Shown: positions 2,230-35,953 of the stretch, piece after piece
Numbering within the stretch: the first letter of the stretch is position 1
How the letters are laid out: each line of letters begins with the position of its first letter
Origin: Candidatus Methanomethylophilaceae archaeon
GTDB lineage: Archaea > Thermoplasmatota > Thermoplasmata > Methanomassiliicoccales > Methanomethylophilaceae
Length of the DNA: 63,832 bases
Direction of reading: 5' to 3'
Assembly: GCA_017524805.1 (NCBI GenBank)
Contig: JAFXUX010000003.1
Coordinates: 1 to 63,832 of the forward strand
Translations under genes and position numbers: made by a program
The notes under the pieces: generated by a model
Databases searched by the model: none
What the model was told of the DNA's origin: nothing
The model's input: the letters and a program-made list of their open reading frames with translations, nothing else

Positions 2230-3009
2230 TCATTCCTCGCGTATGGCACCGTTCAGAATGACATGGGGCCTGCCATTCACTTCGATGATGTCCGCGTCCA
2301 CGCCGTACACGGTGCGCAGATTCTCTTTGGTGATGACCTCTTTCGGAGTTCCGACGGCATAGATCGATCCTCCGTAAAGCATGATGATCTTGTCGGCATA
2401 CTTCGCGGTGATGTTGATGTCGTGGCTGATCATCACTATGATCATGTTCTTGGTCCTCGGCAGCTCGCTGAGGATCCTGGTCACCTCCAGCTGATGGCGC
2501 ACATCCAGATTGGAAGTGGGCTCGTCCAGGATGACCATGTTGGGCATCCTCACCAATCCCCTTGCCAGAACCACCTTCTGATGCTGCCCGGCGGACAGCT
2601 CGTTGAAGTTGCGCATGGCCAGATGCTGGATGCTCATCAGGTTCAGGACGTCGTAGACCTTCTCCAGATCCTCCTTCTTAGTGCCGAACTTGGCGTCGTT
2701 CTGGAGGCCCACCATGATGGTGTCGATGACGGTCAGAGGGAAATTGTCCTCCGAGGAAGCGGGAACATACCCCATGTTGGCCGCCAGCTCCTTCAGCTTC
2801 ATCTCCCTGTTGTCTTTCCCGTCGATCAGGACTGCCCCGCCGGTCGCTTTCAGGATCTTGTTGATGCAGTGCACCAAGGTTGATTTCCCGACCCCGTTCG
2901 GACCCAATATGCAGATGAACTCCGGCTTCTCGAAAGTGTAATTCACTCCCGAGAAGACCGGCTTGCTTGGGTCGTATCCGAACTCCAGGTCTTTCAGTTC
3001 TACCTTCAT
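2230..3009 (-). CDS. ABC transporter ATPase, iron/cobamide type (operon A)
   Basis: This 259-residue protein is the cytoplasmic ATPase of a FecCD/BtuCD-type importer. It has Walker A (GPNGVGKST, about residues 36-44), a signature LSAGQHQK, Walker B MVILDEPTS and the switch histidine in MISHD. A short C-terminal extension ends in PHVILNG, a motif also present at the ends of the ATPases of operons B and C. This marks the three as one paralogous family. It follows the permease gene by 4 bases, so the two are co-translated. The substrate cannot be told from sequence; ferric siderophore or corrinoid is most likely. Confidence 0.93.
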   Translation of the reverse strand: MKVELKDLEFGYDPSKPVFSGVNYTFEKPEFICILGPNGVGKSTLVHCINKILKATGGAVLIDGKDNREMKLKELAANMGYVPASSEDNFPLTVIDTIMVGLQNDAKFGTKKEDLEKVYDVLNLMSIQHLAMRNFNELSAGQHQKVVLARGLVRMPNMVILDEPTSNLDVRHQLEVTRILSELPRTKNMIIVMISHDINITAKYADKIIMLYGGSIYAVGTPKEVITKENLRTVYGVDADIIEVNGRPHVILNGAIREE

Positions 3010-3013
3010 GGGA

Positions 3014-4057
3014 TCACCACGCGCTCTTCCTCTGCTTGATCAGCAGATAGAGGAATATCGGCCCGCCGATGAACGACGTGATCACACCCACAGGCAGGAA
3101 TGTCGGCGCCAGTATCACCCTTGCGATAAGGTCCGAGACCATCAGCAGGACCCCTCCGAACACGGCCGCCGCCGGGATGAGATAGCGGTTGTCCGAGCCC
3201 AGGAACATCCTGACGATGTGCGGCGAAACCAGTCCGATGAATCCGATGATCCCCGTGAAACAGACGACCGATGCGGCCATCAGAGAGATCAGCAGCAGGA
3301 GGATGATCCTCAGCTTGTGGGCGTCCAATCCCAATGCCGTGGCGTTCTTGTCTCCGGTGATCAGGATGTTGAGTTTCTTGGACATCAGCATGAGCGTTAT
3401 CGATCCGACCACGGTGAAGCACATCATTATCCCGCAGTCGTTCCACGTGACTCCGCTCAGATCTCCCACGGACCAGTTGAACACGGATGCCAGACTTGCG
3501 TCGGACAATCCGAGCTTGATCAGCGTGGTGCATGCGTTGAACAGATACATGACGGCGATACCCGCAAGAATCATGGTCGCCGCGGATGTGCTCCTCAGCG
3601 ACGATACCAGGATGATCACCGCGGCAGGAATGAGCGAAAACACGAACGCGAACAGGACCAGGCTGACGCTCCCGCCGAATCCGGCGAAAGAGAGCCCGAG
3701 CCCCAGAGCCAATGTGGCTCCGAACGATGCACCCGATGATATTCCCGTGGTGTACGGATCCGCCAGGGGATTCTTCATCATGCTCTGCATGGCGGCCCCG
3801 GCGACGCCCAGCGACATTCCGGCGATCATGCCGGCCATTATCCTAGGCAGACGGATCGTGAATATCGCCCAATCCGCATCGGGATCCAGCGCATCGGGGT
3901 TGAAGAAATGGTTGAATATCGTTTCGTAGACCTCTATGAAAGAGATCTTCGAGGAGCCTATGGTGGTGGCATAGCCAATCACCAAAATCATTCCGATGAT
4001 GCAGCCTAAAATGAAAAGCAATTTCCTGCGGGTATAGCGATGATACTCCGCCATCAT
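3014..4057 (-). CDS. FecCD-family ABC permease (operon A)
   Basis: A 347-residue membrane protein with about ten hydrophobic helices. It carries FecCD-family signatures: MAGMIAGMSLGVAGAAMQ, NPLADPYTTGISSGASFGA and GFIGLVSPHIVR, the last being the loop that contacts the ATPase. Two copies would form the transmembrane channel for an iron-chelate or cobamide. It starts at an ATG at 4057, about 110 bases after the binding-protein gene. A GC hairpin lies in that gap, which probably sets a lower level of permease than of binding protein. Confidence 0.93.
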   Translation of the reverse strand: MMAEYHRYTRRKLLFILGCIIGMILVIGYATTIGSSKISFIEVYETIFNHFFNPDALDPDADWAIFTIRLPRIMAGMIAGMSLGVAGAAMQSMMKNPLADPYTTGISSGASFGATLALGLGLSFAGFGGSVSLVLFAFVFSLIPAAVIILVSSLRSTSAATMILAGIAVMYLFNACTTLIKLGLSDASLASVFNWSVGDLSGVTWNDCGIMMCFTVVGSITLMLMSKKLNILITGDKNATALGLDAHKLRIILLLLISLMAASVVCFTGIIGFIGLVSPHIVRMFLGSDNRYLIPAAAVFGGVLLMVSDLIARVILAPTFLPVGVITSFIGGPIFLYLLIKQRKSAW

Positions 4058-4169: not shown

Positions 4170-5554
4170 TCAATTCATCAGTTCCTCATATTTCTCGTCG
4201 GCGAATTTGAGGTCGAAATATGTGTACTGGAACCATTCGCTGGCATTCACTCCGGGATGATACTCCTTCATGTAATCGTTGAACAGCTTTTCGATGTCGA
4301 AGTTGAAGACTCCGGGGTAGATGTGGTTGGCTATGTACGCGGTCAGGATGAACGAGGCCGCTCCCAGACGGACTCCCTGGGTATTGATGAGCACCTTGCC
4401 TTTCTCGTAAGCCTGGGTGTGGTCGATCGCCTGGATGCTCTTCATGTCATCCTCGTAGAGCTTGGTCAGATCCCACTTGAACGTGTCGATGACCGAGCCG
4501 TCTGTCTGCTCGAGCACTCCGTGCCAGGGCTGGAGGAGGATCCAATCGGGGTTCATCTCTTTGATCGCTTCCGCGTCGACGTTTCCCTTGGGATATCCGC
4601 GGTCGATGGCGGTGGACGCTCCGGCGAGGACGACAGGCTCGATGTATCCGTTCTTGTAGTCGACTACCGCGGAAGCGTTGTGGCTCGCGAATACGAACGG
4701 ACGTTCCGACATGGGTATGTCCTTGACGTGCTTGGCGATCGTCTTGTAGACCGCGTCTGCCATGTCGACATACTTCTTGGCGTTCGCCTCGTTGTCGGTC
4801 AGGTATCCGAGCATGAGGATGCCGGGGATGGCCCATCCGTCCTCGTATGAGGGCAGCCTGATGATGTCGACTCCGCGTGGTCCGAGAACCTCTTCGCCGG
4901 TCTTGACGTAGTATCTCTTCGTCCCGGTGATTATGCAGCTGGGCATGTCTCCCGTCATGGATTCGTAGTCGGGGTGGCCCTGTTCCCGAAGCATTTCGCA
5001 TCGCTGAACTGCGGATACCACTGCCTCAGCTCTCCCTTGCCGGGGACGTCTCCGACAGAGTCGCAGACCCATTTGACTTCGTTGGAGGTCAGACCGGCCG
5101 CGGCCGCCATCTCGTAGATTGTCTTATATGCCAGGCCGATGGTTGTCAGAGGATAGTTGCAGGTCGAAAGGACGTTGTCGACGTTGATGTAGTTGATTTT
5201 GATCCCATGCTCGCGCTTGACCATCTTCTTGACCAGCTCCAGATCCTTCGAGTCTACGGCGCCGTCCGCGTTGGCATCGGCCAATGAGCGGTTTATGGTC
5301 TTGCCGTCGTAACTGTCCAGAACAGAGACGACCACGGAGCCTGTGACTTTCCCGTCGATGATGTCCTGGATGTATTTCACATCGTCATCGTTGATGTAGT
5401 CGTCGTTGTTAGCGTTGCCTAATATCGGCAGCCTTCCCTCATATTCGTAGGTGGGCTCTTTCTCGCCGCCCCCGTTTGTGAGAAGGACAGCCGCTATTAT
5501 GGCGGCCGCCGCAACGGCAACCACGGCTATTATTGCGATTATTTTTTTGTCCAT
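4170..5554 (-). pseudogene. dockerin-bearing ABC substrate-binding protein, frameshifted (operon A)
   Basis: The start is the ATG at 5554 (MDKKIIAIIAVV), giving an N-terminal membrane anchor with no lipobox. Residues ~45-120 hold two EF-hand loops of the dockerin pattern (NANNDDYINDDD and DANADGAVDSKD). A periplasmic-binding-protein domain of the iron/cobamide type follows. The frame breaks near 4981: the first frame stops at 4955 and a second, open from 5072, continues the domain to 4170. Adding one C near 4982 would restore a continuous reading (FGNQGHPDYESM). This is a real single-base deletion, a slippage site or a sequencing error. Otherwise the protein would bind ligand at the cell surface for the adjacent permease. 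Confidence 0.8.
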
Positions 5555-8572: not shown

Positions 8573-11272
8573 TCAGGCAACAAGCTTGAGGACCTTTTCG
8601 GATCCCGCGAAGATGTGTCCTTTGAGTTTGGAAACACTCTGGCTGATAGTCTTTCCGGAAGCGTCAACAAATGTGATGCCTCCGAAAGCACCCGTACCGA
8701 TGGATTTGAGGCCGTCGCCGAAATCGACCATCTTCAACGCGCTGCATCCGAAGAATGCGTAAGCGCCGATGTACTTGACTTCTCCCACAAGGTCGATGTA
8801 CTGAAGGCTGTCACAATTTGCGAAAGCCTTGAATCCGATGGACTCCACGTTGCTGACATCGATGCTCTTCAGGGTCTTGCAGCCCTTGAACGCATTATCA
8901 GCTATGGATTTGACTGCAAATGTCGCTCCATCGTATTCGACGGTAGCAGGAACGGCAACAGCGATTATTTCGCCCTCATATCCGCTTACGGCAGCCATCT
9001 TCTTCTTAGCATCGGTCACAGTATAAACAAGAGAATCCACAGAGAATTCGGTCCCATTGACGATTCCCTTGTTGTCGAGCTTCAGTTTGCCGTCGGCTCC
9101 GACGAATTTCTTTCCGGCCAGATCTCCAACTGCCGCGCTCTTTCCATCGAAAGACACGCCTGAGAAAGCGCTCTTGCCGATGGATTTGAGACCGTCAGAG
9201 AAAGACACGGAAGTCAGTCCGGTGCATCTGAAGAAAGAGTACGCTCCGATGTATTTCACAGAGGAAAGGTCGGCAGACTCAATGGAGACGCAGTTCGCAA
9301 ATGCTTTGAGACCAACGTTGGTCACAGGTCCAAGGTCTATGGACTGGAGATCGGTGCAGGTGTAGAATGCCTTGTCGGCAATCCTGGTGACCTTGAATCC
9401 GTTGTCGCCTATGGGGTTGTCCACCGTGGCGGGGATCTTCACGTCGGTAATACCATCTTCATAGCCAATGACGGAGAGTGTCTTGCTGCTGAGCGAGGTC
9501 ACCTTATAAACGAGACCGCCCTGGGAGAACTCATAGCCAACATCAGGAGTGACTCTGAACCAGCCTTCGAGGGTTCCGGTATATCCTCTGTTCTCGTTTC
9601 CTTTGAGTACAATATGGTTCAGCTCGCTGGAAGTGGTGTTGATCTCTCCAGGTTCGTCATCGACAAGTATGGTTCTGCCCCATCCGTCATTGACGCTCAG
9701 AGTATAATCTTCGGGTTCAAGTACATACCCGAGGGCATAGATGAACACCTTGTTGTCAAACGTCTCTTTGGTTATAGGGCCGTTCAACTTGATAGTATTG
9801 ACAAGAAGCATTCCGTCAAGTGTGACAATGTTAACTTCAAATGTGCGAACAATATCTACAGGTTTGAACCCACTGTACTCAACGCATTTGAACCGCCCAT
9901 TATCTTTAACAACAACTATTTTGAAATTCTCGTAGGACCCAGTTACGTAGTTCTCATCTTCATAGTAGACAACAAACGTATTATTCACGAGTTCCACAGT
10001 AAAAGTTGCATTTTCATTCTTGGTAATGCCATTTTCTACAAGAACTTCGCCATTCTTTTTTATGGTTATTTTCGATGCAACTTTATAGTCTACAGGGGCG
10101 GATTTGAAGGAATACTTGTAAGAGGGACCAGGCTTAACATCATTATCTGAAATGGTGGCCTTATAAATGTGCCATTCTAGATCGAAACAATCATAGAAAT
10201 TTATACCCCACTCTCCATAAGTTTTCTCTTCACTTTCCTCTCCTAAATCAATGGCCATTATATAAGGAGCACCATCGACATTAGTTTCGGTTTTTTCCGT
10301 ATCGCCACTGATGTTTACTCTGTCCTGTATTTGAGCCCATTCAACATCTTTTCTGTTGTTATCCCCATCGATAAAAGAAAGATATTCTATCGCGGGACCA
10401 TGACTCTTCCCAGTGTATACTAATTGCTGGTAATGAATAGGTTCAATTGATATTTTGCGGTCTTCTTTGAGAACATCCTGAAGGCTCTTTTTCGTTATAG
10501 TCCACTCTATAGGCGTTCCTGGAATTTCTATATTTTCGCCTAATTTAATAGCCCACTTCAAAGAATATTTACCAGCATTTGTGGCAGAATCCTTTTCGTA
10601 AAAAACTAACTCGAATCCAGGAAGTTTTGATACCTCCTCTAAGGCATCATTGTCAATGTGTAAATACTTACGATTTCCAGATGAATCCATTTCGACTATG
10701 GATTGTTCAATACCATTGTAAACCAATTTACCGGCAGTAATTATAGTACCGATACGTATTGTCACAGGTAGATCGATCGTAGGAATATAAACGACAAAAC
10801 TAGATCCGTTGTCCGTAATCTCAACATTTACAGCAACGGTAACTTTTGCATTTGTTTCGAGAAGATGGGTTTTCTCGTTATACTGTAGTCCAGTTAAGGT
10901 TATTACTACAGGTGCTCCTGGATCGGTTGGGTTCACAGATAGTACTTTGCATGTGCACCGCTCACCTTGCTCGTTAATTGCGGTCTCGCCTGCAACACTT
11001 ATGTAGTCTATATCTTTTATTTCCAAACTGATTTCTTTTGTGCTATCGCTGATGCCACCTAGGTCTATAATTGCATTAAAGAACTTAGCTCCATCATAGC
11101 CTATTAATGCCTTATAATAAAACATATAATCGCCATGAATGACATCGGATATATTTTTCGGAGGATAATCAGGAAGATCCTCGCTTCCATCAGTGTCATC
11201 CAATGCAATTACGCCATTGAACAAGCAGCAAACCGACAGCAATGCTATCAGCACTTTTATTTCTGTTTTCAT
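8573..11272 (-). CDS. BspA-like leucine-rich-repeat surface protein
   Basis: An 899-residue secreted protein. An N-terminal signal peptide (hydrophobic core VLIALLSVCCLFNGVIA) is preceded by a good ribosome site, GGAGGTGCTGA, before the ATG. Residues ~30-540 are AT-rich in DNA and look like repeated beta-sandwich modules. Motifs such as LVYNGIEQ and TNAGKYSLK resemble MBG/YDG-type bacterial surface domains. Residues ~600-890 are two blocks of BspA-type leucine-rich repeats with units like IADKAFYTC, IDLGPV and VGLKAFANC. Such proteins act outside the cell in adhesion to surfaces or partner cells. I see no clear C-terminal membrane anchor. Base composition shifts between the two halves, suggesting a mosaic origin. 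Confidence 0.85.
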   Translation of the reverse strand: MKTEIKVLIALLSVCCLFNGVIALDDTDGSEDLPDYPPKNISDVIHGDYMFYYKALIGYDGAKFFNAIIDLGGISDSTKEISLEIKDIDYISVAGETAINEQGERCTCKVLSVNPTDPGAPVVITLTGLQYNEKTHLLETNAKVTVAVNVEITDNGSSFVVYIPTIDLPVTIRIGTIITAGKLVYNGIEQSIVEMDSSGNRKYLHIDNDALEEVSKLPGFELVFYEKDSATNAGKYSLKWAIKLGENIEIPGTPIEWTITKKSLQDVLKEDRKISIEPIHYQQLVYTGKSHGPAIEYLSFIDGDNNRKDVEWAQIQDRVNISGDTEKTETNVDGAPYIMAIDLGEESEEKTYGEWGINFYDCFDLEWHIYKATISDNDVKPGPSYKYSFKSAPVDYKVASKITIKKNGEVLVENGITKNENATFTVELVNNTFVVYYEDENYVTGSYENFKIVVVKDNGRFKCVEYSGFKPVDIVRTFEVNIVTLDGMLLVNTIKLNGPITKETFDNKVFIYALGYVLEPEDYTLSVNDGWGRTILVDDEPGEINTTSSELNHIVLKGNENRGYTGTLEGWFRVTPDVGYEFSQGGLVYKVTSLSSKTLSVIGYEDGITDVKIPATVDNPIGDNGFKVTRIADKAFYTCTDLQSIDLGPVTNVGLKAFANCVSIESADLSSVKYIGAYSFFRCTGLTSVSFSDGLKSIGKSAFSGVSFDGKSAAVGDLAGKKFVGADGKLKLDNKGIVNGTEFSVDSLVYTVTDAKKKMAAVSGYEGEIIAVAVPATVEYDGATFAVKSIADNAFKGCKTLKSIDVSNVESIGFKAFANCDSLQYIDLVGEVKYIGAYAFFGCSALKMVDFGDGLKSIGTGAFGGITFVDASGKTISQSVSKLKGHIFAGSEKVLKLVA

Positions 11273-12953: not shown

Positions 12954-14099
12954 TCACCACACGTTGGAGTTCTTCCTCAGGAGCAGCCACAGGAACATCG
13001 GTCCTCCGAGGAACGCGGTTATCACTCCCACCTGGAGCACCGCGGGCTGGATGATGACCCTTCCGACCAGATCCGAGACGACCAGCAGAGCGCCTCCGAA
13101 CAGCGCCGCCGCCGGGACCAAGTATCTGTTGTCGGCTCCGATGAACAGCCTGACGACGTGGGGCGCCACCAATCCGACGAAACCGATCAGGCCGGTAAAG
13201 CTGACGATTCCGGCGGTTATCAGCGCCACCAAGACCATCATTATGGTCCTGAGCTGGGCGGCGTTCACTCCCAGGGAGTTCGCCATGTCGTCCCCAGTCG
13301 ACAGCACGTTGAGCTTCTTCGACAGGAACATGATTATCACCGCGCCTACGGCGGTTATGCCGAGGGACACCACGATGTCGTCCCAGCTGGCTTTGGCCAG
13401 GGACCCGACCTGCCACTGGTACACGGCTTCCAGGTCGTTGGGGTCCGCCATGAGCATCATGACGGTCGTGAACGCGTTGAATATGTACATGACCGCGATT
13501 CCGGCCATGATCATCGTCGTGGGGGAGGATTTCTTTACTCTGGCCAGGCCGACGATCAGCGCGGTGGGTATGAGAGAGAAAACGAACGCGTTGCCTATGA
13601 CATCGTATCTCCCGCCGAAAATGCTGAATCCCGCAAGCATGGCGAGAGTCGCGCCGAAGGATGCGCCGGAAGAGACTCCGGTTGTATAAGGGTCCGCCAG
13701 AGGGTTCATCAGAGTGCTCTGCATGGCGGCTCCGCATATGGCCAGGCCGGCTCCGGCAACCACTCCCATGACCACGCGGGGCATGCGCAGCGTGCATATG
13801 GCGTAGTCGAAAGCGTCGTTGGTGATGTTCCCGGTGATGTGGTTCCACATCGTTTCGTAGGTTTCGATGAAGGTTATGTCCATGGGGCCGATTGTGGTGG
13901 CGAGACCAGCCGTGACCACCATGACCACTATGCATGCGGCCATGAAGACCCATTTGCGCCAGATGTACGTGTCATACTGGTGGTAGGATTCCTCGTCCTC
14001 CTTGGTCTGCTCGCGTTCGTCGGTCCATTTGCTGAGCGCCCTCAGCACCTTCTTACTGATGAGAGGGTCTTGTTTGAGGTCTGAAATGTTTTCATCCAT
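12954..14099 (-). CDS. FecCD-family ABC permease (operon B)
   Basis: About 381 residues, with an extra ~40-residue hydrophilic N-terminus before the first helix. The family motifs are NPLADPYTTGVSSGASFGA, MGVVAGAGLAICGAAMQ and GLIGFVGLVAPHVVRL. I prefer the ATG at 14099 (MDENISDLKQ), which has AGGA just upstream, over the GTG at 14111. The N-terminal extension resembles that of the operon C permease and is missing from operon A, so B and C look like the closer pair. It is a membrane channel for ligand delivered by the binding protein at 14172-15596. Confidence 0.92.
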   Translation of the reverse strand: MDENISDLKQDPLISKKVLRALSKWTDEREQTKEDEESYHQYDTYIWRKWVFMAACIVVMVVTAGLATTIGPMDITFIETYETMWNHITGNITNDAFDYAICTLRMPRVVMGVVAGAGLAICGAAMQSTLMNPLADPYTTGVSSGASFGATLAMLAGFSIFGGRYDVIGNAFVFSLIPTALIVGLARVKKSSPTTMIMAGIAVMYIFNAFTTVMMLMADPNDLEAVYQWQVGSLAKASWDDIVVSLGITAVGAVIIMFLSKKLNVLSTGDDMANSLGVNAAQLRTIMMVLVALITAGIVSFTGLIGFVGLVAPHVVRLFIGADNRYLVPAAALFGGALLVVSDLVGRVIIQPAVLQVGVITAFLGGPMFLWLLLRKNSNVW

Positions 14100-14137
14100 C
14101 TGTCCTGCCACCGTATAAGAATAAGAAAACGAAGGGA

Positions 14138-14171: not shown

Positions 14172-15596
14172 TCATGGGGAGGTCTTGCCGAGCTTGAAGA
14201 CGATAAGTCCGCCGCACTCCTTGATGTCCTTGTTCTTGTCGATGAGGGTGTAGTTGTGGAAGTACTCGTTGACGTAATTCCATCCGTCCGCCTCGCTGAA
14301 GTACTCAGGATAGATGTAGGAGCACAGGAGATACAGGACGGCGACTCCGGCGAAGGTTCCGAAGGTCTCGTAGCACACTCCGTACACGTCTCCGTTCTTG
14401 TACGCGTCGAATTTGCTGTAGTAATCCGCCTTCTCCTTGAACGCGGCGTAAGCGTCGGAGTAGGAAGTCTCGTTGGTCAGCTTCCCCCACAGGCTGATGA
14501 TCAGGACGTCGGGGTTCTGGGTGAACAGGTACTCGATGGTTGTCGTGTAGCAGGGGCTGGTCGCGACGGTGGAAGGCTCCAGCTTGGCGGTCAGAGGGAG
14601 GTTTGAAGCGACGTTGGTGTAGTCTCCCATGGTCCTTCCGGTTGCAAGGGCGTCGTCGACGCTGGTCTCGACGGCCTGGTTGGTGTTGTACGGGATGATG
14701 AAAGTCTTCTCCTCGATTCCCGCGTTGTCGAAGATGGTCTGTATCTTGTTGTCGAGTCCGGTCCAGTAGTTGTAGAACTCCTTTCCCTTTTCCAGCTTGT
14801 CGAACATGAAGGAGAAGGTCAGGAATCTGTCGATGGGCTCCACGTTGGCGATGTACTTGCATTGGTCAAGCCTGACGTTGATGTAATCGATTCCCCAGCC
14901 GGCTTCGTGGAGAGCGTTGTTGACATCGAGGTTCCTGGATCCGGTGATGACTGTGACGCCAGCGGCCTGGTAAGCGGCGAGGTCGGCTTCGACGGTCTGC
15001 TCGGTACCCATATTGTACAGTTCGTGGACTCCGGGATACAGAGTGTCGGTCACACGGTCTCCGACCCATCTGTCGATACCGGCGGTGACGCGGTCCCAGA
15101 TGCCGATGATCTGGGCGGCCATGTAGCCGTAGTCATAGTTGATGCCGAGGTTTCCGGTGATCGGATAGTGGATGTACTCGGGGTATCCGTTGTCGTTGAC
15201 GTAGTAGAGAAGAGTCTTCTCCTTGTTGATGATCTTGTTCAGAGCGACGAGGTCGTCGTTGTTGACCTTTTTGTCGCAGTTGACGTCGGCGAGAGGATAT
15301 TTGGTCTTGTCCCAGACGCCAGTATTGATGATGTTTTTCAGGATGAAAACGTCGTCGGAATTGATGTCCATGTCGTTGTTGACGTTCCCGAAGATCAGAA
15401 GGTTGCATCCCGAAACCTCGAATTTGTCATAGCATTCCGCTTTGCCGTTGATCGAGGCGTTCTGAGGGGCATCCTTGATATCGTCCAGATTGTAGGACCT
15501 CTCGTTGCTTTTATTGGATGTCAAAGCCAATGCGGCCGCTGCCGCTATGATGATGGCAATAACAACCACAGCTATAATTGCTACTTTCTTATCCAT
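14172..15596 (-). CDS. dockerin-bearing ABC substrate-binding protein (operon B)
   Basis: 474 residues. It starts at the ATG at 15596 with a charged, then strongly hydrophobic N-terminus (KKVAIIAVVVIAIIIAAAAA): a membrane anchor without a lipobox cysteine. Residues ~68-130 carry two EF-hand loops in dockerin spacing, NVNNDMDINSDD and DVNCDKKVNNDD, each followed by a helix. Residues ~135-470 form an iron/cobamide-type periplasmic-binding domain. It is the first gene of operon B and the likely extracellular capture protein. In cellulosomes such EF-hand pairs bind calcium and dock onto a cohesin; no cohesin is visible in this window. Confidence 0.9.
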   Translation of the reverse strand: MDKKVAIIAVVVIAIIIAAAAALALTSNKSNERSYNLDDIKDAPQNASINGKAECYDKFEVSGCNLLIFGNVNNDMDINSDDVFILKNIINTGVWDKTKYPLADVNCDKKVNNDDLVALNKIINKEKTLLYYVNDNGYPEYIHYPITGNLGINYDYGYMAAQIIGIWDRVTAGIDRWVGDRVTDTLYPGVHELYNMGTEQTVEADLAAYQAAGVTVITGSRNLDVNNALHEAGWGIDYINVRLDQCKYIANVEPIDRFLTFSFMFDKLEKGKEFYNYWTGLDNKIQTIFDNAGIEEKTFIIPYNTNQAVETSVDDALATGRTMGDYTNVASNLPLTAKLEPSTVATSPCYTTTIEYLFTQNPDVLIISLWGKLTNETSYSDAYAAFKEKADYYSKFDAYKNGDVYGVCYETFGTFAGVAVLYLLCSYIYPEYFSEADGWNYVNEYFHNYTLIDKNKDIKECGGLIVFKLGKTSP

Positions 15597-32862: not shown

Positions 32863-34029
32863 TCATCCCCATACCTTGCTGTTCTTCCTGACAATCAGCC
32901 AGAGGAACAGCGGTCCGCCCATGAACGCGGTGACCACACCCACCTCCAACTGGGCGGGAGCGATTATCGTGCGTCCGATGAGATCCGCGACGACCAGCAG
33001 CAAAGCTCCGAAAGCGGCGGAAGCCGGAAGCAGGAACCTGTTGTCTGGACCGACGAATATCCTCACGATGTGCGGGGCCACCAGACCGACGAATCCGATG
33101 AGCCCGGTGAAACTGACAACGGCGGCGGCGATGAGCGCCACTATGAGAAGGATCAATCTCCTCATGCGGTCCGCGTCGACTCCGAGCGATTTCGCGGTGT
33201 CGTCTCCGGTAGAGAGGATGTTCAGCTTGCTGGTCAGGAACTGGAGCGCTATCACGCCTGGGATGACGAACACAGCCATCACGACTACGTCGGAGGATCC
33301 GGCCATCGCCAAAGATCCTACGGTCCAGCGGTACAGCTGCTGCAGCTTCTCCGGCTCGGCCATCAGAGATATCAGCGTCGTGAAGGCGTTGAATATGTAC
33401 ATGATGGCGATACCCGCCATGATCATCGTCGTGGGAGAGCCGTTCCGCAGCTTCGACAGGATGATGATCACGAACATGGGGATCAGCGAGAACACGAACG
33501 CGTTGATGACGGTGGTGTACTGCGCGGGGACCCCGAAGATCGATATCCCAAGCACTATGCCTATGGTCGCTCCGAAACTTGCTCCGGACGACACTCCTGT
33601 GGTGTAAGGATCGGCAAGCGGGTTCATCAAAGTGCTCTGCATGGCGACACCTGCCGCCGCGAGACCGACGCCTGCCAATATGCCGAGATAGACCCTCGGC
33701 AATCTAATGTCGAATATTATGCTGGCTTCCAAAGACTCCCTGCCCTGCGGGAACTGATAGCCTGTGATCTGCTGGAATATGATCTCATAGCATCTCCCGA
33801 CTGACAGCGGATAGTCGCCGACGGTCAGCGCCAACAGAAGCACCGCGAAAGTGGCGACTATACATACGACAATGAACACCCATTTTCTGTGGACATACTT
33901 CTTGTATTTGTCCACGATCGAATTGGTGGTGTCGTCCCTGTTATCCTCGGCGGGGGCGTCCCAGATGCCCAACGATTTCCTGACGACGTCCTTTATGAGC
34001 GGATCGTCGGATACGATGTCTGAGGACAT
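32863..34029 (-). CDS. FecCD-family ABC permease (operon C)
   Basis: 388 residues with an extra N-terminal hydrophilic segment of ~50 residues, as in operon B. Motifs are NPLADPYTTGVSSGASFGA, LGILAGVGLAAAGVAMQ and GLIGFVGLVAPHIVRI. It has about ten transmembrane helices. It starts at the ATG at 34029, fifty bases after the binding-protein stop and just past a GC hairpin. It probably transports the ligand caught by the Big_2/dockerin binding protein at 34079-35953. Confidence 0.93.
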   Translation of the reverse strand: MSSDIVSDDPLIKDVVRKSLGIWDAPAEDNRDDTTNSIVDKYKKYVHRKWVFIVVCIVATFAVLLLALTVGDYPLSVGRCYEIIFQQITGYQFPQGRESLEASIIFDIRLPRVYLGILAGVGLAAAGVAMQSTLMNPLADPYTTGVSSGASFGATIGIVLGISIFGVPAQYTTVINAFVFSLIPMFVIIILSKLRNGSPTTMIMAGIAIMYIFNAFTTLISLMAEPEKLQQLYRWTVGSLAMAGSSDVVVMAVFVIPGVIALQFLTSKLNILSTGDDTAKSLGVDADRMRRLILLIVALIAAAVVSFTGLIGFVGLVAPHIVRIFVGPDNRFLLPASAAFGALLLVVADLIGRTIIAPAQLEVGVVTAFMGGPLFLWLIVRKNSKVWG

Positions 34030-34078: not shown

Positions 34079-35953
34079 TCAGGCCATCTTGTAGGGTTGG
34101 GCGTTGCCCATGTTCTTGACGTCAGGGTTGCTGTACATCGAGAAGTTGTCGTAGCAGTACTGCATCGCCTCCCATCCTTCCTCCTCGCTGAAGATGTCGG
34201 GCCAGATGTACGAGGCCATCAGGAGAAGCTGGGGTATTCCGAAGTAATTGGCGATGTTGTAGTAGTTGACGCCGTAGATCTGCTTGTTGGCGTAGGCGTC
34301 GGTGTACTTGAAGACTTCAGCTTTGTTGTTGAAGTCTTCCTCGACCGCTTCGACGGAGTGGGAACCGTTCTGGAACTGGATGATGAATATGACATCGGGG
34401 TTCACAGTGTATACCCACTCGAGACTGACCTTGGGGCATCCGGAATCCACTACGAGGTTCACGCTCCTCATCGGGAGTTTGCTCAGAGTGTAGACGTCAC
34501 CGGGCGCGGAGCCGTTGGTGTAGGGCGAGTCCAAGGAGATGGTGGTCTCGCTGTCGCTGATGGACAGGAAGGGCGAGATGAAAGTGTAGGTCTTGTCGAG
34601 CCTTGCGACTCCGTCCGCAACCTTCTTCTCGATGCCGTCGGCCCAGTCGAGGTACTTGTGGGCCTGCTCCATGTCGTCGAGGATGAAACCGAGGATCAGG
34701 AGGGATCCGTACTGGTCCACATAATCGGCTGAGCACTTGGTGATCGGCAGCATGATGATCTGCATGTCCAGACCGTTGGCGATCAAGGTCTCCAGCTTGG
34801 AATAGTCGTTGTACCAAGGAGCGATGAAGAGGTTCGCGCCGGATGCGGCGAGGGTCTCGGGGGCTCCCTTGTTGGGCTCTCCGATGTTCTTGATCTTATC
34901 GCCGACGCCGGGATACCTGTCTTCGGCGGTGATGGAATTGCCGAAGGACTGGTTGGTAGTTCCGATGATCTTGTCATACTCGCCGAGAATGATCAGCGCA
35001 TCGATTGGATAGATGTGGTGGGTGGCGATCTTGAGGTTGGACTTGTCGATGGGCCACTTGATGCTGGCGATCTTGGGTTCGACATCCCAGTAGTACAGGG
35101 TGGTCTCTTCCTTGTCCAGTATCTTCTGGAGAGCGGCGATATCTGCGGAATCGATGACTCCGTCGGCGTTGACATCCGCATACGCGTTCATGTTCTGGTC
35201 GAAAAGGGCCTTGCCTTCGAGAATGTTCATCAGAGCGACCATGTCTTTCTGGTCGATGTCGTCGTCTCCGTTGACGTTTCCGAACACCGCAAGCCTGACG
35301 CTCTGGGTGTACTTGAAATCGTAAGCGTATGAGTTCATCGCGGTTTTCACGGTCACTGCGCAGGTGGCGGTCTTGGAACCGTCGACGGTGGTCACAGTTA
35401 TGGTTGCGGTACCGTTGGAGACTCCGGTAACTACGCCGTTGGATACGGTGGCGACTGAGCTGTCGCTGGATTTCCAGGTGACGTTCTTGTTAGTAGCGTT
35501 GGAGGGAGCTACGTTCGCGGTGAGCACAGCCGACGATCCTTTCACGACTTCCAGAGTGGTGTTGTCGAGGGAGACTCCCGTGACATTGACGACGGTGGAG
35601 ACCGCTTTTACCGTGACGCTGCACGTGGCAGTCTTGGAACCGTCCACCGTGGTCACCGTTATGGTCGCATTTCCGGCGGAAACGCCGATCACGACGCCGT
35701 TCGAAACCGTGGCGACAGACGTGTTGCTGGATTTCCAGGTGACGTTCTTGTTCGTGGCATCGGAGGGAGACACGGTAGGCGTAAGCGTGTATGACGAGCC
35801 AACATCCAATGTTAAGGATGTTTTATCCAATGTAACTTTACTAACGCTAACATCCTTGTTTCCATTTCCGGATGTCAGAACCACTGCGGCCGCTATTGCG
35901 GCGATAATGATTATCGCAGCGGCAATAAGGGCTATGAGTTTGTTCTTTTCCAT
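34079..35953 (-). CDS. ABC substrate-binding protein with two Big_2 and a dockerin-like module (operon C)
   Basis: 624 residues from the ATG at 35953. Order of domains: an N-terminal membrane anchor (LIALIAAAIIIIAAIAAAVVL); Big_2 domain 1 (~35-115) and Big_2 domain 2 (~120-205), both with TNKNVTWKSS and ATITVTTVDGSKTATC; two EF-hand loops in dockerin spacing (~225-285), NVNGDDDIDQKD and DVNADGVIDSAD; then an iron/cobamide-type binding domain (~290-620). The Big_2 stalk would lift the calcium-binding module and ligand domain away from the membrane. It is the longest of three paralogues and the first gene of operon C. Ligand unknown. Confidence 0.92.
   Translation of the reverse strand: MEKNKLIALIAAAIIIIAAIAAAVVLTSGNGNKDVSVSKVTLDKTSLTLDVGSSYTLTPTVSPSDATNKNVTWKSSNTSVATVSNGVVIGVSAGNATITVTTVDGSKTATCSVTVKAVSTVVNVTGVSLDNTTLEVVKGSSAVLTANVAPSNATNKNVTWKSSDSSVATVSNGVVTGVSNGTATITVTTVDGSKTATCAVTVKTAMNSYAYDFKYTQSVRLAVFGNVNGDDDIDQKDMVALMNILEGKALFDQNMNAYADVNADGVIDSADIAALQKILDKEETTLYYWDVEPKIASIKWPIDKSNLKIATHHIYPIDALIILGEYDKIIGTTNQSFGNSITAEDRYPGVGDKIKNIGEPNKGAPETLAASGANLFIAPWYNDYSKLETLIANGLDMQIIMLPITKCSADYVDQYGSLLILGFILDDMEQAHKYLDWADGIEKKVADGVARLDKTYTFISPFLSISDSETTISLDSPYTNGSAPGDVYTLSKLPMRSVNLVVDSGCPKVSLEWVYTVNPDVIFIIQFQNGSHSVEAVEEDFNNKAEVFKYTDAYANKQIYGVNYYNIANYFGIPQLLLMASYIWPDIFSEEEGWEAMQYCYDNFSMYSNPDVKNMGNAQPYKMA
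35341..35790 (-). repeat. internal tandem repeat encoding two Big_2 domains
   Basis: Segments 35341-35540 and 35605-35790 are highly similar DNA, for example both contain GGATTTCCAGGTGACGTTCT. The likeness at the DNA level points to a recent duplication or gene conversion. Confidence 0.85.

Follow-up and report, generated by a model that had tools for sequence, protein, structure and literature searches.

We propose, with moderate confidence, that type I dockerins are an inbuilt part of an order-wide set of membrane-anchored class III binding proteins that serve FecCD-type ABC importers in the Methanomassiliicoccales, and that any envelope partner of these dockerins is usually something other than a cohesin. 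Dockerins are best known from bacterial cellulose-degrading machines, and their presence is taken to indicate cohesin-based assembly. The ancestral family described here, which reaches at least 15 copies in some genomes, has kept its dockerins intact within uptake proteins, and most of these genomes have no detectable cohesin; either the dockerin fold has taken on a second job, as a calcium-stapled pedestal, or it meets an unrecognised surface partner on cells that are reported to be wall-less. The proteins share an order of parts (membrane helix, optional Ig-like spacers, dockerin, ligand domain), conserved calcium-ligand positions, recurring gene neighbors, and a spread that is independent of cohesins.

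Three transport loci with dockerin-bearing binding proteins

The 63,832-nt stretch of DNA analysed here (the window) comes from a 1.95 Mb, 98% complete genome of a gut methanogen of the order Methanomassiliicoccales and contains three genes for such proteins. Plus-strand reading of the ranges 34079–35953, 14172–15596 and 4170–5554 meets stops in all of them (just one in 14172–15596). The genes lie on the minus strand and begin with ATG codons at 35953, 15596 and 5554, the outer coordinates given in a preliminary description of this DNA. Those ranges do match ATG-started minus-strand genes, but 5554–4170 is not a single open frame: comparison with intact orthologues from other genomes shows two frames that join at about 4970–4973, and given those orthologues either the assembly is in error at this point or the gene is broken. 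At all three loci, a permease gene and an ATPase gene come after the binding-protein gene:

34079–35953, minus: binding protein 1 (P0001); membrane helix, two Big_2 Ig-like domains, dockerin, class III ligand domain
35864–35953, minus: N-terminal hydrophobic anchor of P0001, without a lipobox (from sequence)
35354–35584, minus: second Big_2 Ig-like domain of P0001; the other Big_2 lies just N-terminal of it
35117–35284, minus: dockerin of P0001, with loops NVNGDDDIDQKD (35278–35243) and DVNADGVIDSAD (35176–35141)
34103–35101, minus: class III (Peripla_BP_2-like) ligand domain of P0001 (from profile A2 against the PDB and alignment to P0002)
32863–34029, minus: FecCD-family ABC permease adjoining P0001
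31986–32894, minus: ABC ATPase of the P0001 set
14172–15596, minus: binding protein 2 (P0002); membrane helix, dockerin, class III ligand domain
15225–15386, minus: dockerin of P0002, with loops NVNNDMDINSDD and DVNCDKKVNNDD
12954–14111, minus: FecCD-family ABC permease adjoining P0002
12164–12949, minus: ABC ATPase of the P0002 set
4170–5554, minus: binding protein 3 (P0003), frame-broken near 4970; membrane helix, dockerin, class III ligand domain
5144–5431, minus: dockerin and linker of protein 3, with loops NANNDDYINDDD and DANADGAVDSKD and a longer spacer between the loops
3014–4057, minus: FecCD-family ABC permease adjoining protein 3
2230–3009, minus: ABC ATPase of the protein 3 set

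As first described, the loop pair lies between the membrane anchor and the ligand domain in all three proteins, and each loop, 12 residues long, is followed by a helix. Among named relatives, the closest is the rumen MAG Methanomassiliicoccaceae archaeon Tb.RUG.172, with 93% identity to P0002. An 899-aa BspA-type LRR protein is encoded at 8573–11272, between two of the transport loci.

Identity of the loop pairs

The pattern [DN]xNxDxxx[DN]xxD, which had been claimed to occur as two loops in all three proteins, is found exactly twice in each (at residues 229 and 263 of P0001, 72 and 105 of P0002, and 50 and 96 of P0003), and when each protein was shuffled by residue 5000 times, two loops within 70 aa never arose. 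Pfam Dockerin_1 matches over the loop pair of P0001 above its cut-off (3.3e-7) and covers part of the loop pair of protein 3; P0002 fell just under the 22.9-bit cut-off in hmmscan (21.6 bits, 2.5e-4) and above it in the genome search (26.7 bits). A lineage-tuned profile, A5, matches all three (E 1.7e-28 for P0002, 1.9e-26 for P0001 and 1.3e-23 for protein 3), and 38 of 39 relatives match Dockerin_1 at E 0.01. When a profile built from 39 full-length relatives was searched against the PDB, its loop region returned the dockerins 4fl4 (3.2e-9), 1daq (1.5e-8) and 1ohz_B (1.2e-6).

Structure prediction of the EF-hand pair, which the preliminary description had proposed as a check, points the same way. 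The AlphaFold model of the P0002 module, made from an alignment of just five rows, has a pLDDT of 85–95 over loops and helices, and its best 39 PDB matches in Foldseek are all dockerin-containing structures, none with E < 0.001; these E-values are weak because the domain is small (79-aa query). Sequence and fold features of type I dockerins are present, with D or N at loop positions 1, 3, 5, 9 and 12 and two predicted loop–helix units. As Pfam, PDB profile and model-fold searches all return dockerins, we conclude from sequence and predicted fold that the loop pairs are real type I dockerin modules with predicted calcium sites.

In 92 aligned modules, which were collected by dockerin profiles and thus have some built-in enrichment for intact ligands, the ligand positions of both loops are D or N at 0.97–1.00, with 1.00 for the opening Asn and closing Asp of loop 1 and for the Asp at either end of loop 2. 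Loss of the ligating residues, the outcome named beforehand as speaking against the dockerin claim, is not seen in these relatives, where D/N stays at or above 97%. In orthologue pairs, drift is faster in the dockerin than in the ligand domain (85 vs 94%, 74 vs 90% and 36 vs 50% identity), and most ligand positions nevertheless remain D/N; the P0001 orthologue of the cohesin-negative genome G020 also retains D/N at most of them. No conserved patch was seen among the dockerin surface positions.

Ligand domain and transporter type

The ligand-domain part of the 39-relative profile matches 4mo9 (1.8e-25), 2etv and BtuF (1n2z, 1.5e-5), and Pfam PF01497 is found in 16 of the 39 relatives. By these matches and their adjoining FecCD permease and ATPase genes, the proteins are class III ABC binding proteins (Peripla_BP_2; BtuF/FepB-like). 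The full-length AlphaFold model of P0002 (six rows) had a mean pLDDT of 49 and was not used for domain packing. The permeases resemble the BtuC, F420-0 and siderophore NCBIfam models alike, all below cut-off; among NCBIfam permease models there was no specific match to B12 transporter models above cut-off, and naming the ligand by this route was given up, as no model exceeded its cut-off. The binding proteins probably capture a corrinoid, a heme or a siderophore-like chelate.

A 2024 survey found that BtuC diversity marks the Methanomassiliicoccales and linked the BtuFCD set to competition for B12 and to the amount of methane that ruminants produce (PMC10804542). The dockerin-bearing transporters are probably the same set as that BtuFCD expansion, with its expanded FecCD/BtuC permeases; the text of the paper does not mention dockerins.

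Spread of the fusion in the genome and the order

The genome yields 15 dockerin-plus-linker matches at E 1e-8, all inside binding-protein genes, and 24 FecCD permease matches, an unusually large set for 1.95 Mb. Several of its FecCD-linked class III binding proteins have no dockerin (L203, 766 aa; L201, 472 aa; L204, 806 aa; and, judged by eye, L198:4782-5885), which indicates that the dockerin is common but not essential for transport. In other proteins, the dockerin and ligand domain are repeated jointly: L028:936-4169 (C47) and L029:7217-9933 each carry two dockerin-plus-ligand-domain units per polypeptide (the second protein runs off its contig), and three dockerin matches fall within one frame in a relative (G018:C40). 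That the two domains repeat together in these tandem proteins argues that they form an integral unit.

Among 293 sampled genomes of the phylum, the fusion was found only in Methanomassiliicoccales, in four of its families; four matches in family f14 stop short of the linker end. Pfam detects dockerins in 27 of 30 same-genus relatives and in 35 of 60 relatives overall (a tally that may include the window’s own genome), although Pfam alone undercounts them, as in G015, with no Pfam dockerin and three A5 matches. On a gyrase B tree, dockerin-bearing binding proteins occur throughout the genus and into sister genera. No relatives were found on viral contigs, and a literature search that scarcely covered subscription journals returned no paper describing dockerins in Methanomassiliicoccales.

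Cohesins and two types of dockerin

A cohesin profile search of the genome, also proposed in the preliminary description, found four cohesins above cut-off with Pfam and five, in four proteins, with a tuned profile (A1). Two of these proteins, of 831 and 455 aa (L024:6373-8868, L026:3246-4613; C37, C33), are secreted and have a cohesin followed directly by a canonical dockerin, an arrangement that might in theory let them link up head to tail or serve as adaptors. One 739-aa protein, which combines a cohesin with Big_2 repeats and has a membrane helix at its C-terminus, adjoins a 1763-aa protein (L025:2972-8263; C37:40971-46262) with two cohesins, the most in any one protein of the genome, together with Big_2 repeats and BspA-type LRRs, possibly an adhesin-scaffold hybrid. 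The cohesin profile matches solved cohesins, among them 3ul4, 4ums and 2xdh, the last being the Archaeoglobus fulgidus cohesin. No dockerin-bearing glycoside hydrolases were found in the genome; the dockerin proteins found are binding proteins or cohesin proteins.

Cohesins are present in 10 of 60 relatives by Pfam and 8 of 60 by the tuned profile (tallies that may include the window’s own genome), and in 6 of 30 same-genus relatives by the tuned profile. That cohesins were simply missed was rejected, as the tuned profile found them in nearly the same genomes as Pfam, adding the second cohesin of C37:40971-46262. On the gyrase B tree, the cohesin genomes group in a single clade (G000, G026, G018, G027, G001, G006), with one weak case, G011, in addition; G002, which lies in this clade, is just 61% complete. 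No cohesin was detected in about 20 same-genus genomes with dockerins, several of them single-contig, nor in complete genomes with up to 9 binding-protein dockerins. Of 15 other genomes from the family and order that have dockerins, several of them single-contig, 14 likewise gave no cohesin with the tuned profile; the single weak cohesin in this group again has a canonical dockerin after it within one protein. Since binding-protein dockerins are more widely spread than detectable cohesins, they are probably the older of the two.

The dockerins themselves fall into two types, one of which is often part of the cohesin-bearing proteins themselves. Those linked to cohesins are internally symmetric, with a repeated L-[KR]-K-type helix and a repeat-to-repeat identity of 0.47 at non-ligand positions, versus about 0.21 for binding-protein dockerins, a value that is alike whether the genome has cohesins or not (0.21, 0.22). 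Within the genus, the cohesin-linked type occurs in 6 of 7 cohesin genomes and none of 24 others, counted on the best-scoring dockerins rather than all of them. Dockerin counts are highest in cohesin genomes (mean 14.9 vs 3.5, p 2e-4), which are mostly one clade, and the binding-protein dockerins of cohesin genomes are slightly nearer to the cohesin-linked type (24.6 vs 22.0 bits, p 0.02, uncorrected for descent).

Possible roles of the dockerin

Our best reading is that the binding protein has the dockerin from an ancestor, as a module that lies close to the membrane and is stabilised by calcium. Each module would bind two calcium ions and fold into a compact, calcium-stapled base for the ligand domain next to the membrane helix, setting the height and orientation of the ligand domain above the FecCD permease, to which the ligand domain would hand over. 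The dockerin may also offer a docking face to an envelope partner, usually a non-cohesin one, and in the minority clade that includes this genome, cohesin proteins with their own dockerin type could have secondarily recruited the binding-protein dockerins. On balance, we see about an even chance that throughout the Methanomassiliicoccales, an order with gut as well as environmental methanogens, the dockerin fold has ceased to be a cohesin ligand and become a permanent calcium-bound component of ABC binding proteins that works without cohesins. Against this reading count the coincidence of the dockerin-richest genomes with the cohesin genomes, which fits co-use, the small bit-score shift toward the cohesin-linked type, and the dockerin-less class III binding proteins of this genome; some cohesins may also have diverged past the reach of the profiles.

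Classical docking, in which the genome’s cohesin proteins would bind the binding-protein dockerins and gather the capture proteins into a surface scaffold, finds support in the five cohesin domains, including those of the membrane-helix cohesin–Big_2 and two-cohesin Ig-like/LRR proteins, in their match to solved cohesins, in the dockerin richness of cohesin genomes, and in a precedent from ANME archaea with multi-cohesin proteins (PMC9012536). We nevertheless consider it unlikely: two of the four cohesin proteins have a canonical dockerin of their own, a type that tracks cohesin presence among the sampled dockerins, whereas the binding-protein dockerins lack this internal symmetry equally in cohesin-positive and cohesin-negative genomes. 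The preliminary description’s suggestion of cohesin docking gains a set of candidate cohesins in this genome but finds no support as a general role, since cohesins were detected only in a single clade and in a handful of scattered genomes.

If the dockerin instead docked to some non-cohesin envelope partner shared by all members of the order, this would account for why an intact dockerin has been kept in the same position order-wide, and the faster drift of the dockerin would fit diversified partners. This drift fits a purely structural role equally well, however, and with no candidate partner and no conserved surface patch found, we regard such docking as quite improbable. Linking to the cell wall, another role suggested earlier, is unlikely to be the sole one, as the protein is already held by its N-terminal membrane helix and neither a wall nor an S-layer was seen in a ruminal member of the order (PMC5011839), so that wall attachment is not needed. 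Finally, chance EF-hand-like motifs or generic acidic repeats are refuted by the absence of the loop pair from shuffles, by the dockerins returned from profile, PDB and fold searches and by ligand conservation in 92 relatives, the hmmscan score of P0002 just under the Pfam cut-off being the one point in favor of a reading to which we give practically no credence.

Relation to known systems

The preliminary description was not quite right that dockerins are not standard in uptake proteins: in ANME archaea, dockerins are fused to NikA/OppA and TroA binding proteins, and multi-cohesin, scaffoldin-like proteins occur in the same genomes (PMC9012536). The proteins described here share the fusion of archaeal dockerins to ABC substrate-binding proteins, but they belong to a different binding-protein class (class III, FecCD-linked) and represent an ancestral, order-wide trait that usually occurs without cohesins; we therefore see them as a variant of a known dockerin–binding-protein fusion.

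Like clostridial type I cellulosomal dockerins (1daq, 1ohz, 2ccl, 4fl4), the modules have a duplicated EF-hand loop plus helix, the calcium-ligand positions and the predicted fold; unlike them, they lie between a membrane helix and a ligand domain rather than on an enzyme, begin loop 1 with Asn, lack repeat symmetry, and usually have no cohesin in the genome. The A. fulgidus cohesin and other non-cellulosomal archaeal cohesin–dockerin modules are similarly found outside cellulosomes, but here the dockerin sits in uptake proteins, mostly without cohesins. Class III binding proteins (4mo9, 2etv and BtuF 1n2z) share the ligand domain and the FecCD permease partner, but match just the ligand-domain part of our profile, whereas here a helix and a dockerin precede that domain.

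Elsewhere in the same genome, a 629-aa membrane-helix protein (L198:6126-8015; C8) carries a single EF-hand-like loop, DSNGDGKYDTDD. Methanomassiliicoccales use pyrrolysine, so the in-frame TAG codons seen in a gyrase B gene (L207; G026:C57:46126-48033) and in a dockerin binding-protein frame (G043:C22:203510-203749) reflect either read-through or sequencing error.
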